Positions 49,015-59,189 of a DNA stretch of 64,000 nt are shown piece after piece. The stretch is from Deltaproteobacteria bacterium (GTDB taxonomy: Bacteria > Bdellovibrionota_C > UBA2361 > JAGFJO01). The notes under the pieces were generated by a model. The model saw only the letters and a program-made list of their open reading frames with translations. It had not been told where the DNA came from and ran no database searches. Within the stretch, counting starts at the first letter, position 1; each line of letters opens with the position of its first letter. Both the position numbers and the translations under genes were made by a program. The stretch lies in the NCBI GenBank assembly GCA_024102635.1, contig JAGFJO010000082.1, forward strand, positions 1-64,000, written 5' to 3'.

Positions 49015-52000
49015 ATGGTGCTTGTTGTTGTCATGCGAAATTCTCTTACTGCTTTCAGAATCTGCACCTGCATAGTCTTCGGCTTCCTATTGCTGACAGC
49101 GAGCCCTCTTGAGGCTCAGGTTTTCCCCGGTGCTGAATGGGATGTGCGCACGCCTTCCGAGGTTAATCTCGATGACGCAAAACTCAATCAGTTCATCTCG
49201 AATGTTGGTGGACAGGGGTGCATTATAAAGGACGGCTATCTTGTGAAGAGTTGGGGATCGTTATCAGCAAAGGCTGATTGGGCCTCAGCTTTCAAGCCCG
49301 TTACAAGCACACTATTAATGTTCGCCCTCAAGGAAGGATTGATCTCTTCTGTCGATGCTGCTGTTGATCCATTTGTCATCGATGCAATCGGTAAGGGGCT
49401 CAAACCTGAGGATCAAGTGATGACGTTCAATCATTTGGCCAACATGGTGAGCGGATATGCACTCCCTGAGCTGCCGGGCGCCAGATGGGGGTATAATGAT
49501 TATGCAATTAAACTCTATTCCTTGGCACTCTTTAACGGCGCGTTCGATGAGACGGCCAATACGGCAGCGCTAAATCCCGGGAGGCTTGGAGTGTTGGGAT
49601 TCCAGGATGGATCGCTTTATAGTTCACGCGGAGGATTTGGCATCTCGACCTCACCGCGCGATATGGCTCGTATAGGGTGGTTCTGGCTTAATAAAGGAAG
49701 GTGGCGAAATGAGCAGATGCTTCCCAGCGCATACTTCGATAGCTATATGCGTCCGGTTGTGCCCAGCACGACGGTACGAACTGCCGGTGGACTTGATGAT
49801 TACCTGGCAGTAGGAACCATAGGAGGGGGCACAAATCAGACTCAACACGGACCGGGCCGATACGGATATGGATGGTGGTTTAACTCTGCGGTAAATGGAG
49901 TGCGCACCTGGCCTGATGCTCCCCCTGACACCTTCCAAGCCAACGGACATTTCGACCGTGAGATAGTAACCGTAATCCCGAGCCTTGGTATGGTCGTAGC
50001 CGCTCGCGGAAGTTGGGGCAGTTTTGACCCGGGCAATGCATCAGCGGGAATGAATCTTAATCTTAAGCTTCTTAAAGATGCAGTACTGAGCGGCCCTCTG
50101 CCCGGACAGATAAGAGTGCATCCTCAGGACCCGTCTCAACTGGTCTATAACCGCGACAACAATCAAGATGGAGAGCTCGATCCGTTCTTCATGAGCGGGC
50201 CGGGCGATCCCGAGGACTTCCTCTATAGAGGAACGCGGCAACCCGATGGGACACGGAGCGGCGATCAGTTAAACTTAATAAATAAGCTCACAGGTACGAG
50301 TGCGAACTCTATCTATTTTCAAGCTATCCGTTCGCATGGTGGCGACGGAGCGGCAGACCACAACCCTTTCATAAACTCTAATCCGGCAAACCCACTTGAT
50401 GAAGATATTTTAAACCAGTGGGAGACTTGGCTGAGCGCCATGGATAATCAAGGGGTAGTGGCCTACTTTTTCTTCTATGATGATGCCGTTAAAGTTGCGG
50501 CAAATCTTGGCTGGCCGCTTGATTCTTCGGGAGATCTTCACCCTCAAGAGCGATATTTCATTGAGGCACTTGTTAATCGCTTCAAGCACCACAAACACCT
50601 CGTCTGGGTAATTATGGAGGAAGTGGAGGAGATGGGAAGTGATTATGTGCCGCACGCCAAAAAGATCGCCGATGTAGTCCGTAAGGCCGATACCCATGCC
50701 CATCCGATCGCCGTCCACAGGCTAAGCAAATTGACTTTTACGGAGTTTGCCGACGATCCGAACATCGATCAGTTCGCAATCCAGTACAATGTCAACACCG
50801 CCGAGCTCCTTCATCAAGGAATGTTGACGGCACGCAACAACGCCTCCGGCCGCTATAGCATCAATATGGCGGAAGCCGCGGGGCATTACTCCTCCGATCG
50901 TGCATCAGTGAGGCATAAGAGCTGGGCGGCAGCGATGGGAGGAGCGCATGTGATGGTATACAATATGAACATCGCCAGTACTCCGCTGGATCACTTGAGG
51001 GATGCTGGTAGGCTCAGAGTATTCATGGAAGCGACTGATTTTTACAAAATGGCGCCGCGTGATGATTTAGCCTACGGCGGCACGCAGTACCTCTTAGCCT
51101 CACCTGCGAGCGCTTACATTGCGTATGCCTCTTCAAGTCAAGGTTCACTCGGCGTGCGTCAACTAGCGAGCGGTCGCTATAATTTATTCTGGTTTAGTCC
51201 CGCTACAGGTGCTTCTGTGGTCCAATCCGATACTATTGTTACCGGTGGAGACACTACTTTTACGGTCCCAGCTGTAATTGGCAGCGAAGTAGCTCTGTAT
51301 ATAAAAAGGGAGGGCGCCTCTCCTCCCGCTACACCAACCGCTACTCCTACGGCCACAAGAACAGCTACCCGAACACCCACCCGTACTGCTACGGCAACAA
51401 GAACAGCAACTAGGACCGCTGTCAGCACGGCAACTCCCACCGCCACCCGAACCGCTGCTAGGACGGCTACCCCAACAGCCACTCCCACTAGAACTCCTAC
51501 ATACACTCAAACCGCTACGCCAGCTCTAACAGTTACACCGACCGCAACGGCCTCAGCGACCGCTACCACCATGGTGGAGCGCCCCTCCGGCACTCCGACT
51601 CCAATTACCGTTTCGACCGGATCTCCCACTCCTATTGAAACCGTTCCAGGAGATTATCAGAAAACAAAGATCTGTTCAGACTATGATGGTGACGGCCAAA
51701 GCGATATCGCGTTGATCGAACGCTCGGGCAGCTCGCATCGTTTCCATATAAAGTTGTCGAAAAGCGGAAAAGAGACGTTCGCTCAGTTTGGAGAAGCAGG
51801 CTCCGTTCCGATCTCCGCGGACTATGACGGGGACGGAAAAACGGATTTAGGATTCATTACACCGGGCCGGGAGCTGAAGTGGTCGTTTGCAAACTTAAAG
51901 GCAAAAAAGGTTAGAACGTTTGTATTCGGGAATTCGGGTGATCTCGCGTTAAGCGGATGCGATATTGATGGCGACGGAGGCGATGATCTGGCTGTTATAT

Positions 52001-52587
52001 CAAAAGGAAAAAACCTAAGGTATTTCAACACCACCACGATGAAGGGGAAGAGGATCAAGCTTCCACATATGATAAGAAATGCAAGGGAAATCTTATGCTC
52101 GGAAATGAACGGAAGCCCCGGAGATGAGCTTATAATGCTCGCCAAAGTGCCGGGTACCGGCAGCGTAGCGGGCGGCAGGAGCTTCGCGCTACACACTTAT
52201 TCTACCGCAAAGAATCTTAAGGGGGCGGGCACTGGCCTAGTTCGGGAAAGAGAGCAGTTACTGACAGCGCGACCGCTATCGCTAGTTTCAACCAGCTTGG
52301 ACGGCAAAACGCCGCTATTAGGAATAATCGAGAAGGCTGGCAAGGGGTTTCTGAAGCTTTCTTTTCTTTCGGGCGACTCGGTTGAAAAGGTATTCGACAT
52401 CCCCCGCTTCACTCAGCTCTTTATTCATCGAACTATAGGAGGGGAGGGGGTGACGTTGTTGACAAAGCGTTCTGCCTTGTTGCGACTGGACTTTAGGGAC
52501 GAAGACCCCAAGGTGCTTGAGTTCGAAAATCAGTTGCCTGAGCTGTTCGAATTGCTGACCTGTCCTGCAATCATTTCTGTGCGATAG
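49015..52587 (+). CDS. Secreted beta-lactamase-fold/glycosidase-like/FG-GAP fusion
   Basis: The product has 1190 residues. A signal peptide precedes a serine beta-lactamase/penicillin-binding-like domain at about 40-370: SxxK at S91-K94, Tyr160 in the WGYNDY motif, GYGWW and the NGHFDREIVTVIP strand. Residues about 375-765 resemble the apiosidase-like TIM barrel (DUF4038) with its collagen-binding-type C-terminal strand (FRxx then QYLLASPASAYIAYASS). A Thr/Pro/Arg linker (TPTATRTATRT) occupies about 768-878. Three calcium-loop-bearing FG-GAP-like repeats (DYDGDGQSD, DYDGDGKTD, DIDGDGGDD) end the protein. An internal ATG at 49033 could also start. Fusing two hydrolase folds is unusual. It is probably extracellular. 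Confidence 0.75.
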   Translation: MVLVVVMRNSLTAFRICTCIVFGFLLLTASPLEAQVFPGAEWDVRTPSEVNLDDAKLNQFISNVGGQGCIIKDGYLVKSWGSLSAKADWASAFKPVTSTLLMFALKEGLISSVDAAVDPFVIDAIGKGLKPEDQVMTFNHLANMVSGYALPELPGARWGYNDYAIKLYSLALFNGAFDETANTAALNPGRLGVLGFQDGSLYSSRGGFGISTSPRDMARIGWFWLNKGRWRNEQMLPSAYFDSYMRPVVPSTTVRTAGGLDDYLAVGTIGGGTNQTQHGPGRYGYGWWFNSAVNGVRTWPDAPPDTFQANGHFDREIVTVIPSLGMVVAARGSWGSFDPGNASAGMNLNLKLLKDAVLSGPLPGQIRVHPQDPSQLVYNRDNNQDGELDPFFMSGPGDPEDFLYRGTRQPDGTRSGDQLNLINKLTGTSANSIYFQAIRSHGGDGAADHNPFINSNPANPLDEDILNQWETWLSAMDNQGVVAYFFFYDDAVKVAANLGWPLDSSGDLHPQERYFIEALVNRFKHHKHLVWVIMEEVEEMGSDYVPHAKKIADVVRKADTHAHPIAVHRLSKLTFTEFADDPNIDQFAIQYNVNTAELLHQGMLTARNNASGRYSINMAEAAGHYSSDRASVRHKSWAAAMGGAHVMVYNMNIASTPLDHLRDAGRLRVFMEATDFYKMAPRDDLAYGGTQYLLASPASAYIAYASSSQGSLGVRQLASGRYNLFWFSPATGASVVQSDTIVTGGDTTFTVPAVIGSEVALYIKREGASPPATPTATPTATRTATRTPTRTATATRTATRTAVSTATPTATRTAARTATPTATPTRTPTYTQTATPALTVTPTATASATATTMVERPSGTPTPITVSTGSPTPIETVPGDYQKTKICSDYDGDGQSDIALIERSGSSHRFHIKLSKSGKETFAQFGEAGSVPISADYDGDGKTDLGFITPGRELKWSFANLKAKKVRTFVFGNSGDLALSGCDIDGDGGDDLAVISKGKNLRYFNTTTMKGKRIKLPHMIRNAREILCSEMNGSPGDELIMLAKVPGTGSVAGGRSFALHTYSTAKNLKGAGTGLVREREQLLTARPLSLVSTSLDGKTPLLGIIEKAGKGFLKLSFLSGDSVEKVFDIPRFTQLFIHRTIGGEGVTLLTKRSALLRLDFRDEDPKVLEFENQLPELFELLTCPAIISVR

Positions 52588-55266: not shown

Positions 55267-56973
55267 GTGCAAAAGGCGCAGGAACAGTACTCTATTGTCC
55301 AAACAGTGCAGCTCGATGGCGGCGGCGACAGCCACTATAGGATGGAGTGGCCGGCAAAGCATCTGGCCAAGCAGGCTCCGGCTTGGAGAGTCATTAATGT
55401 AGACGCGCATGCTCTTGAGCGGTTCTCGTTATGCGAGAAGGCCGATCTGCTTGTCATTTATCAGTCTAACGATGTCGACCTGTTTCCAATCATTCGGCGG
55501 CGGCGGCAAGCGGGGAAAAAGACCTTAATAGAGTTTAATGATAATTTTTATGATCCGCCCGCGAGTTCACCTGTTTTTCAGAAGTGGAGCTCTTTTCAAA
55601 TAAGGGAGATTTATCGGAAGCTAATCGAAAATTGCGATGCGCTTATAGTCACAGGGGAGGGGCTTAACCAGCTTTTTGCGGGCAAACTCGACGTGCCTAT
55701 TCATATCCTTCCCAATCAGCTCGCGCTCTCTCCCGAGCCGCTTAAACTTGCCAAGAGAGGAGCGGACGGCAAGTTTCACGTCGGATGGGCCGGTTCAGGA
55801 GGCCACTTTCCAGATATCCTCTCGATCGTTCCCGTAATCAGAAAGTTAATGGACGCCATCCCCCAACTGACCTTTCATGTTATGGGCAATGAAGCCATAC
55901 CTTACATGCTTAAGCTTCCGCCTGAGCGGATGACCTATACCCCTTGGGGCACGGTAGGGGAGTATCTGAGGTTTTGGCATAAGGTTCAAATTGGACTTGC
56001 TCCGCTTATCGACAACCCCTATAACCGCTGCCGCAGCGACATCAAGGCAGTAGAGATGGCCGCTGGAGGAGCCTTGCCGCTGCTTGCTGGCCTACTGCCA
56101 TATCAAAATTTCTTAAATGCCACGGGACTTAAAAGCTTCAGTTCGCGGGAGGAGCTTTATTCGTTGGTCGAGTCGTATTGGAAGAATGGTGATGCTCTCA
56201 AAGAGCAAGTGACGAAGTGTTACAACTATGTGTGTGATAGCCGCTTAGGTAGTAAGGATCTCTCCAGATTGCTTCTTTATGGGCAGTATCTTCCTCCAAA
56301 TCCGCTGCATGAACTGGCGTCCTTCAATACTGGATATAATGAGGTGCACGGCACGCGCCAGAAAGATTCCAAGGGAAAGCTAGCGTTTCTGGCTGCTGAG
56401 CAGGCTATACAAAACGGTGACGAAAGCGGTGCGAAAGTCGCCCTTGAGCTTGCCTTGGAAGAGAACCCTGAGGATGCCAATCTCGCCATCGAACTTATTA
56501 AGAAATTCTGGCTTAAAGACCCGTCTCAGGCCATCCGCAGGATCGCCGAGGTAAAAAAGCACCATCCGCGCGACCTCCGTTTTGACCTGCTTATCCTCGC
56601 AGCTTTGACGGCGAGCGACTCATTACCAGATGAGTGGCAGAGCTTCATCTCACGCCTCAAACAATTTGAGAACTTTGCGCAGACTCACTACCGTCAGGCG
56701 GTGCTTAAAATTTTCCTCCCTCAGCTAAAGGAACAACATCGACTAGCTGACGCCGGGGTGGAGCTTCTGCTGTTGTACCCTCGCAGTCTTGATCTCCGGC
56801 TGGCAGTGGGTGAAGCGTTGATTGCGAGAGGAGACGACCTATCGGCACTGGAGCAGTTCGAGGCACTAGTGGCCGAATATGAGGCTCTCGAGGAGAATCA
56901 TGAGTTCTTGGGTGCTGTCACCTCGGTCTATCTTCGCACCTGGAGGGATGCCTTGTACGCGCGGTGCAAATAG
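55267..56973 (+). CDS. GT4-like glycosyltransferase with C-terminal helical repeats
   Basis: The product has 568 residues from a GTG with AAGGAG upstream. The N-terminal 360 residues form a two-domain GT-B fold: EFNDNFYDPP, the GWAGSGGHFPDI nucleotide-sugar loop and the conserved IKAVEMAAGGALPLLA with its acidic residue. The C-terminal 200 residues are TPR-like helical pairs (AEQAIQNGDESGAKVALELALEENPED). It is cytoplasmic. Flagellin lies 16 bases downstream on the opposite strand, which makes flagellin a candidate acceptor; this is not shown. Confidence 0.85.
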   Translation: MQKAQEQYSIVQTVQLDGGGDSHYRMEWPAKHLAKQAPAWRVINVDAHALERFSLCEKADLLVIYQSNDVDLFPIIRRRRQAGKKTLIEFNDNFYDPPASSPVFQKWSSFQIREIYRKLIENCDALIVTGEGLNQLFAGKLDVPIHILPNQLALSPEPLKLAKRGADGKFHVGWAGSGGHFPDILSIVPVIRKLMDAIPQLTFHVMGNEAIPYMLKLPPERMTYTPWGTVGEYLRFWHKVQIGLAPLIDNPYNRCRSDIKAVEMAAGGALPLLAGLLPYQNFLNATGLKSFSSREELYSLVESYWKNGDALKEQVTKCYNYVCDSRLGSKDLSRLLLYGQYLPPNPLHELASFNTGYNEVHGTRQKDSKGKLAFLAAEQAIQNGDESGAKVALELALEENPEDANLAIELIKKFWLKDPSQAIRRIAEVKKHHPRDLRFDLLILAALTASDSLPDEWQSFISRLKQFENFAQTHYRQAVLKIFLPQLKEQHRLADAGVELLLLYPRSLDLRLAVGEALIARGDDLSALEQFEALVAEYEALEENHEFLGAVTSVYLRTWRDALYARCK

Positions 56974-56988
56974 GCAGCATGGCTAGTT

Positions 56989-58857
56989 CTAACCCGAGTC
57001 ACCAAGAAGTTGCAGAGCAATGTTTGGAGCGATATTGGCCTGGGCCAAAATGGCAGTTGCAGCGTTTTGCAAGATCTGAAGACGGGACATCTTTCCTACT
57101 TCTTCAGCAACATCGACGCTAACAATACGTCCGTAGGCGGCATCAAAATTGTCTGTGGCAGCGGCCAGATTAGCCAAAGCAACAGAATAGCGCCCCATAG
57201 TCGCGCCGATCTCGCCTCGTTCAAGAGCTATTCTAGTGAGCGCACCTTCCAAGACAGGCAGCGCTTCAAGAGCGCCCGCGCGGGTATTAATATTAAGATA
57301 TTGGAGTGTACTGGTGCGCTCCGTATTTGCCAATGATACTCTGGCACCACTACTTGAAAAACTTGACGCGAAATCTAAAGCTCCATCCCCGTTGAAATCG
57401 CCGAAAGCCAATTTATCGCCGTGCTGGTCGGGAACCGTTATGTAGGCATTAAAAGTTCCGTCGGCATTGCCGAGAAGAATTCCCACGCTGCCCATGCCGC
57501 TAGCGCTCGAAACTAGATCAACAATACCGTCTCCATTGTAATCGACCGCATCGATCGCAAATGCCTGAGTAGGAGAGGAGTAAGTGTAGGTCGTGAAACG
57601 CCCGTCTCCATTGCCTATTAGCACTTTTAGCGTGGAAGCGGGCCCGTCAATAAGAACGTCATCAAATCCATCTCTGTTGAAGTCTTCTACTACCACTCTG
57701 GTTGGAGATGCAGATACTACGTTGCGGACGGAGGTATTGAAGGTGCCATCACCCTTTCCAATCAGCACGTGAACCTCGTTCCCGCTACCGTTGGTTATTA
57801 GATCAACAATCCCGTCCCCGTTGATATCTCCCGGGCTAACTCTAGACACTAAAATCGTGGCTGTAGTAAACGAGGAGGCTGCTTTGAAAGTACCATCTCC
57901 ATTCCCTAAACGCACCGCAACTCCGGCGCTTGTGGCATATATAAGGTCGAGGAACCCGTCATTATTTAGATCTGCCGGTTCACCGGCCCTTCCGCTGCCG
58001 ACCCCAACCATTTCCCAGCTCTGGGCTGCTCTAAAGGTGCCGTTGCCGTTGCCGAGAAAGACATTTATCGATTGGTCGCCCCCGCTGCTCGAGGAGGTGA
58101 TAAGATCTAGGACCCCGTCATTGTTAAAATCCGCAATTTCAACCTCTTCTGTATCGGTGCCGAGAGTCTGATAGACTGTGCGGACATTGAAGCTGCCGTC
58201 ACTGTTGCCGAGTAATACGCTAACTCCCGTATTAGTTTGTCCCGCCACCAGATCAAGAACACCGTCGCCATTTAAGTCCGCAGTTTCCAGGTCCGCGATT
58301 GTGCCGGCCGCTTGATAACTCGTGACCGCCTGAAAAGTGCCGTCGCCTATATTTCGGGCAAGTTCTTCCGTAAGGCCGGACTCTATGCTGCCGTCTACCC
58401 CGTAACCCGCCTGTATTCTAAGACTGTCAACTGAGGTATCAAGCAGCCGGCGGCCATTGAACTCAGTGCTGTTTATTATCCGGTTAAACTCGTCGACAAG
58501 AGCATTTGCTTCGGAATTAAGGGCTCTCCGCTGTGCCAGGGTATAGGAGCCGTTAGCAGCCTGTTGTGCCAGTTCACGCTGCCTTTCTACTATGGTGGTA
58601 AGCTCGTTCAGTGCTCCGTCAGCGATGTTTAGTAAGCTCATACCATCGTTGAGATTTGCGATGCCTCTTGCATAAACGCGGCTATCAGCTTTTAGAGCAG
58701 TTGCTACCGCTAGTCCGGCGGCATCGTCACTTGCGCGGTTTATTCTTAGTCCACTCGAGAGAGCCTGAAAACTTTTGGAAAGCGAGGATGAGTTATCGGA
58801 AAGGTGTCTTTGGACCTTCAGCGAGTTTATGTTCTTCCCTAATGTAACCGTCGACAT
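56989..58857 (-). CDS. fliC: Flagellin with inserted seven-blade FG-GAP propeller
   Basis: The product has 622 residues from the ATG at 58857 (GGAAG upstream; an upstream TTG is rejected because it would overlap the ribosome-binding site). Residues 1-170 are canonical D0/D1 flagellin: NINSLKVQRHLS, SSGLRINRASDDAAGLAVA, LNEL..VERQRELAQQAANG and LNSEANALVDEFNRIINSTEFNGRRLLD. Residues 540-622 are the C-terminal D1/D0 (ERGEIGATMGRYSVALANL, QILQNAATAILAQANIAP, LQLLG). Residues about 180-515 hold seven FG-GAP repeats, each with a DxNxDGxxD calcium loop (near 194, 243, 297, 344, 392, 439 and 487). They are spaced 47-54 residues, as in integrin-alpha propellers. The ends should assemble into the filament and the insert should lie on its surface. 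A longer form of variable D2/D3 domain is expected by the family. Confidence 0.92.
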   Translation of the reverse strand: MSTVTLGKNINSLKVQRHLSDNSSSLSKSFQALSSGLRINRASDDAAGLAVATALKADSRVYARGIANLNDGMSLLNIADGALNELTTIVERQRELAQQAANGSYTLAQRRALNSEANALVDEFNRIINSTEFNGRRLLDTSVDSLRIQAGYGVDGSIESGLTEELARNIGDGTFQAVTSYQAAGTIADLETADLNGDGVLDLVAGQTNTGVSVLLGNSDGSFNVRTVYQTLGTDTEEVEIADFNNDGVLDLITSSSSGGDQSINVFLGNGNGTFRAAQSWEMVGVGSGRAGEPADLNNDGFLDLIYATSAGVAVRLGNGDGTFKAASSFTTATILVSRVSPGDINGDGIVDLITNGSGNEVHVLIGKGDGTFNTSVRNVVSASPTRVVVEDFNRDGFDDVLIDGPASTLKVLIGNGDGRFTTYTYSSPTQAFAIDAVDYNGDGIVDLVSSASGMGSVGILLGNADGTFNAYITVPDQHGDKLAFGDFNGDGALDFASSFSSSGARVSLANTERTSTLQYLNINTRAGALEALPVLEGALTRIALERGEIGATMGRYSVALANLAAATDNFDAAYGRIVSVDVAEEVGKMSRLQILQNAATAILAQANIAPNIALQLLGDSG

Positions 58858-59189
58858 CGTTCTTCCTTGAAGTGTCAACTACACGGTCGGCGCCCCCGCC
58901 TCACCGCTGAACGATAGGGCGCTCTTTCTAGGGCATGCCGCCTCACGGCGAATAAGGCCCTTTTTAATGCTAAGCTATTGAAGTTCTTAAAATAAAAGGG
59001 CAGAAGGTTCGTTGCAGGTGTAGAGCGAATCGAAATCTAGCGAGTGTTAGGAATCGTGATAACTATCAAATTTCGTTGAAGAGATGAAGTTTGAAGTTCT
59101 TGCCGGCTATATTGGATACCGTATTCCCAGTATAGGTTTGCTGCACCCAGGCATGGCTACCGGATGTACCTATCAGCCTTCATAGGTTC
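58858..59189. other. Flagellin promoter region
   Basis: The 330 bases between the flagellin start and the end of the M16 gene have no gene. The part nearest flagellin should contain its promoter. TTAAAAA and GCCG elements resemble a sigma-28 box but with incorrect spacing (13 not 15 bases), so I do not call one. An AT-rich block with inverted repeats occurs near 58930-58960. Confidence 0.35.

Follow-up and report, generated by a model that had tools for sequence, protein, structure and literature searches.

The gene at positions 56989 to 58857 of the window, meaning the whole 64,000-nt stretch of DNA analyzed here, encodes a protein of 622 amino acids. On balance, we read this protein as a true flagellin with a closed seven-bladed VCBS/FG-GAP β-propeller as its outer domain, belonging to a class-wide multigene family whose members would be displayed on mosaic filaments and serve in surface recognition or adhesion. 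The coordinates are those given in a preliminary description of this DNA, but the gene is oriented on the minus strand (58857..56989), with its ATG at 58857 and the stop codon at 56989-56991. This ATG is favored over an upstream TTG at 58878 because an AAGGAAG ribosome-binding-like site lies a few nucleotides 5' of it. The gene and its parts are as follows.

56989..58857, minus strand: propeller flagellin gene, 622 aa (open reading frame and Pfam)
58887..58911, minus strand: weak sigma28-like promoter candidate, TTCAG-N15-GCCGA (pattern match)
58862..58868, minus strand: AAGGAAG ribosome-binding-like site, 5' of the ATG (sequence)
58432..58836, minus strand: Flagellin_N (PF00669), D0/D1 N-terminal helices, residues 8-142 (Pfam, 9e-33)
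58333..58437, minus strand: D1 hairpin and linker into the propeller, residues 141-175 (low confidence in the full-length model)
57325..58332, minus strand: seven-bladed VCBS/FG-GAP β-propeller, residues 176-511 (Pfam, AlphaFold, Foldseek)
58252..58278, minus strand: putative calcium loop 1, DLNGDGVLD, residues 194-202 (motif)
58105..58131, minus strand: putative calcium loop 2, DFNNDGVLD, residues 243-251 (motif)
57946..57972, minus strand: putative calcium loop 3, DLNNDGFLD, residues 296-304 (motif)
57802..57828, minus strand: putative calcium loop 4, DINGDGIVD, residues 344-352 (motif)
57658..57684, minus strand: putative calcium loop 5, DFNRDGFDD, residues 392-400 (motif)
57517..57543, minus strand: putative calcium loop 6, DYNGDGIVD, residues 439-447 (motif)
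57373..57399, minus strand: putative calcium loop 7, DFNGDGALD, residues 487-495 (motif)
57004..57252, minus strand: Flagellin_C (PF00700), D1/D0 C-terminal helix, residues 536-618 (Pfam, 9e-17)

Both flagellin ends score above the Pfam cut-off, and the solved chains closest to them are flagellins from solved filaments. Between the ends, FG-GAP_3 matches in seven stretches (6e-53), bearing out the earlier view that a flagellin head and tail bracket seven FG-GAP repeats. The seven DxNxDGxxD loops described before were likewise all located under the strict motif, at a spacing of 47-53 residues, and a chance occurrence was rejected, as 20,000 shuffles of the window protein never produced more than two. 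This layout supports placing the propeller at the outer-domain (D2/D3) position of a flagellin. For the HExxH metallopeptidase insert of flagellinolysin, a search of the same protein gave a score of 19.8 bits, far below the cut-off of 205, the match covering residues 113-175 only.

A complete propeller had been predicted in the preliminary description, and structure prediction concurs. The AlphaFold model places helices at residues 7-35, 46-101 and 107-130 and a C-terminal helix at 526-609, and folds residues 176-509 into 28 strands forming seven four-stranded blades, with pLDDT values mostly of 85-95. The calcium motif sits between the strands designated A and B in each blade, and a strand at 176-181 precedes the first A strand of blade 1 and would, as expected, complete and close blade 7. 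The full-length model, computed from 20 homologous rows with paralogues left out, reached a pTM of 0.58 with an uncertain linker (141-175), and the propeller domain modeled alone a pTM of 0.84. Foldseek aligned it to the EPTP propeller of LGI1 (TMt 0.78 over 343 columns) and also to BBS1, integrin alpha chains and a fungal PVL lectin, all complete propellers; the nearest solved sequences are PVL lectins (6e-6). The domain is thus predicted to be a closed ring of seven four-stranded blades.

Flagellins with inserted domains are a known kind of protein: a 2017 survey reports 61 domain families, and its top-ten list includes neither FG-GAP nor VCBS (PMC5595980). Two surveys of propellers (PMC8023676 and PMC9218822) make no mention of flagellins. 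No description of a flagellin with FG-GAP repeats was found in the literature searched, in line with the earlier statement that no characterized system of this kind was known. Flagellinolysin (PMC5595980) likewise carries a foreign functional domain at the hypervariable position and displays it on the filament; it is, however, an enzyme scattered by lateral transfer, whereas the propeller is class-restricted among the sampled genomes and occurs in ~10-20 versions in some of them. Flagellins with D2/D3 and other outer domains share the core and the insertion position, but their outer domain is not a propeller and their genes are few per genome (PMC8931119 and PMC10256154). The supercluster of PVL, integrin alpha and tachylectin-2 shares seven blades, a DxDxDG loop in AB and the strand layout (PMC8023676). 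What appears unusual here is the scale and the mode of evolution.

The window gene is no lone oddity. In the genome it belongs to (3.88 Mb in 154 contigs), Flagellin_N matches 20 times, 18 of these above cut-off. Ten are propeller flagellins of 601-646 aa on ten contigs; others are plain flagellins of 272-287 aa, and a further one, of 439 aa, also lacks FG-GAP. Each of the ten copies stands alone among functionally unrelated genes, away from flagellar clusters. The preliminary description had asked for a search of other genomes for FG-GAP insertions. With a family profile built from 20 members, we found ~115 near-full-length propeller flagellins, up to ~20 per genome, in 19 of 46 class genomes, which represent 12 of the 24 families; a twentieth genome has a single weak candidate. 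The genome with ~20 copies (G003) holds some of them in tandem arrays. A single recent oddity is therefore rejected, and mis-assembly, raised earlier as a ground for doubt, is excluded because ten genes of this genome share the layout and 18 other genomes have it too. Several propeller flagellins of another genome, G035, lie less than 500 bases from a contig end (contigs C3, C7, C34, C49 and C71), which suggests that repeats lie nearby and that copies are undercounted.

Among ~750 sampled genomes of other phyla, in scans that scored the top few candidates per genome and could let a rare case slip by, no propeller flagellin was found, the matches at threshold being FG-GAP proteins without flagellin ends; the plasmids and phages searched gave no full-length match. 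Class genomes carry up to 36 Flagellin_N matches each, a number that includes FlgL-like matches, compared with the 15 flagellins of Magnetococcus MC-1, the maximum quoted in PMC6299084. The same genomes also encode a second class of flagellins of 434-475 aa whose outer domain matches no named family (L100:13570-14889, L141:2587-3909, L124:5640-7001 and L168:2917-4221), and one 983-aa flagellin (L159:3601-6552, G041:C88) combines FG-GAP repeats with additional sequence without assignment.

Across 73 aligned members, sequence constraint is distributed unevenly over the propeller. Exactly seven loops are present in 66 of the 73 under a slightly loosened motif. The AB and CD loops have a mean entropy of 1.30 and essentially constant length, and are thus conserved about as strongly as the flagellin core (entropy 1.43), which has invariant residues across both ends. 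In contrast, the DA and BC loops have entropies of 3.0-3.15 and lengths of 0 to 12. From integrin-type propeller topology, we take AB/CD and DA/BC to lie on opposite faces. Conserved calcium loops together with variable, length-varying loops on the opposite face suggest that the propeller is a displayed, diversifying surface, although the same pattern may be a general mode of FG-GAP propeller evolution and no more. The GW sugar-pocket motif in loop DA, which characterizes PVL and tachylectin-2, is almost absent from the flagellin propellers (6 GW in 24,484 residues of 73 propellers), so that a PVL-type lectin was rejected. The preliminary description spoke of a ligand-binding domain; with the pocket of the nearest solved relatives nearly missing, we prefer to speak of presumed ligand binding.

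The constant number of seven blades, the free surface residues and the lack of a conserved ligand pocket are also what one would expect if the propellers formed a structural shell that thickens, stiffens or spaces the filament, much as sheets of D2/D3/D4 outer domains do in certain bacteria. Their sequence drift would then reflect a robust repeat fold under relaxed constraint and no selection for binding. Flagellins are known whose outer domains play a part in viscous motility (PMC8931119 and PMC10256154). We hold such a shell to be rather unlikely, for it leaves unexplained why one genome should keep 10 to ~20 different versions, and why cores are homogenized and propellers are not.

Within genomes, cores are on average 67% identical and propellers 33%; between genomes, the values are 53% and 31%. 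Two copies from one tandem array of G003 share 95% of their core but 31% of their propeller, which equals the family background, and two G035 copies share 94% and 34%, respectively. At the DNA level, the cores of such pairs are ~74-85% identical, too low a value for confusion by the assembler. If core and propeller of a pair were equally old, they should be equally diverged at fourfold sites. Within-genome pairs with core identity of at least 85% showed a fourfold divergence of 0.55 in cores versus 0.69 in propellers (Wilcoxon 2e-5, the pairs not being independent), and G035 gave 0.51 versus 0.69. For the window genome, both values are 0.72 and mean core identity is 54%; its own cores show no homogenization.

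Phylogenies agree with this picture. On the carefully computed core tree, the eight G035 copies form one clade (100/100), whereas the starred branches of the propeller tree force three changes for them and no bootstrap tree unites them. Genome labels change 28 times on the core tree versus 39 times on the propeller tree. AU tests on quick trees had not rejected a single clade of propellers, but they were uninformative, as better trees had escaped the free search, and the careful trees were used instead. The core of a G035 flagellin without FG-GAP falls inside the same G035 core clade, so outer domains appear exchangeable on the core of one genome. We read the uniformity of cores as probable recombination or gene conversion in some genomes, and strong diversification of the propellers may add to the discordance.

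Propellers can also be renewed from within. Two members, one each from G045 and G035, have blades with 71% protein identity and a repeat period of 147 nt at 73-81% DNA identity; both propellers were recently re-amplified from few blades, a process known in other propellers (PMC9218822). The recently amplified propellers of that study likewise have blades highly similar at the DNA level, as do some members here, but its amplified VCBS propellers vary in blade number and the flagellin family is held at seven. The window copy, with 29% identity between blades, carries an old propeller. A general tendency of blades to be more alike within one protein was dropped, since it holds in 23 of 73 proteins and is driven by few amplified propellers. 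Giant FG-GAP proteins at L148/L224 (G035:C60) and L225 (G003:C14), whose open frames span 4585 and 3898 aa, have propellers that closely resemble the flagellin ones and show the same depletion of Trp and Cys; they are a possible source or sink of blades.

Copy number, dispersed loci and background-level divergence of propellers inside one tandem array would also suit antigenic variation or phage escape, with propellers as decoys exposed one or few at a time whose sole job is to differ, and flagella do serve as phage receptors (PMC10399903). Every copy, however, has its own start and is intact as a gene rather than a silent cassette, and we consider variation as the sole purpose unlikely.

In the reading we prefer, of propeller flagellins assembled into the filament for recognition or adhesion, the following steps are envisaged. 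The flagellar exporter passes unfolded chains. The propeller flagellin would leave the cell unfolded by this type III route, and outside the cell calcium at the seven DxNxDG loops would let the propeller close; we infer this calcium-dependent closure from the motif and the general rule of export. The genome encodes the export apparatus and flagellin chaperone, as judged from FlhA and FlhB above the NCBIfam equivalog cut-offs and the presence of FliS and FliO. Depletion of Trp and Cys was dropped as proof of flagellar export, as it is equally strong in giant FG-GAP proteins from these genomes that are not flagellins. Two further FHIPEP proteins of the window genome (G000:C99:19421-21424, followed by a protein-kinase-like gene, and G000:C73:2679-4448) are nearer to SctV than to FlhA, below the SctV cut-off, and possibly belong to non-flagellar type III systems.

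The D0/D1 helices would then polymerize the propeller flagellin alongside other flagellins into a propeller-covered mosaic filament, and conservation of the D0/D1 ends argues for such polymerization. Both ends are present in full and belong to the best conserved regions of the protein, which would be needless in secreted or cell-surface proteins that derive from flagellins and have lost polymerization; despite the orphan loci, some divergent cores and weak promoter evidence that could point that way, we regard a role off the filament as very improbable. As to promoters, the pattern TT[CT]A[AGT]-N15/16-GCCGA occurs in 11 of 70 upstream regions of propeller flagellins versus 2 of 512 of other genes; it was picked on the same regions that were counted and is looser than the textbook motif, and amounts to an enrichment, with the motif present in a minority of the genes. 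Textbook sigma28 and sigma54 promoters were absent from the upstream sequence searched.

The flagellar lattice has a rise of ~52 Å along 11 protofilaments. A propeller ~50 Å wide would by our estimate fit one lattice cell at a radius of 70-80 Å, so that a near-continuous shell could form. The earlier figure of about 20,000 copies per filament presumes a sole flagellin; with ~18 flagellin-type genes in the genome, it is equally likely that the filament is a mosaic or that this flagellin has a minor role in it. On such a filament, the calcium/CD-loop face would be kept constant for folding and the varying DA/BC face displayed. Recombination or conversion would keep cores compatible in some genomes, with propellers diverging or being renewed by re-amplification of blades. 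The most likely payoff would be recognition of or adhesion to glycans, surfaces or other cells, and a second benefit may be escape from flagellotropic phages or grazers. More speculatively, and with considerable doubt, the whole class might carry a flagellar recognition or adhesion repertoire in which recombination-uniform cores bear blade-amplified, diversified propellers and 10-20 variants co-assemble in mosaic filaments.

Flagellins with inserted domains are usually one odd gene, while here core and displayed domain evolve by different rules within one family of up to ~20 versions per genome. This makes directly testable why many bacteria keep several flagellins. It would also offer a natural scaffold, as whole propellers with calcium motifs would pass the flagellar channel and be displayed in a regular lattice.

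Next to the flagellin gene, a convergent gene for a 568-aa protein (55267-56973, plus strand) ends 15 bp from the flagellin stop. A Pfam search gave no match for it; our impression is of a glycosyltransferase whose C-terminal half is rich in repeats, which could bear on glycosylation of the flagellin, and the other propeller flagellin copies have no evident neighbor of this kind. Farther along, positions 49015-52587 (plus strand) encode a 1190-aa protein with an apiosidase-like match, a long Thr/Pro/Ala linker and FG-GAP repeats.
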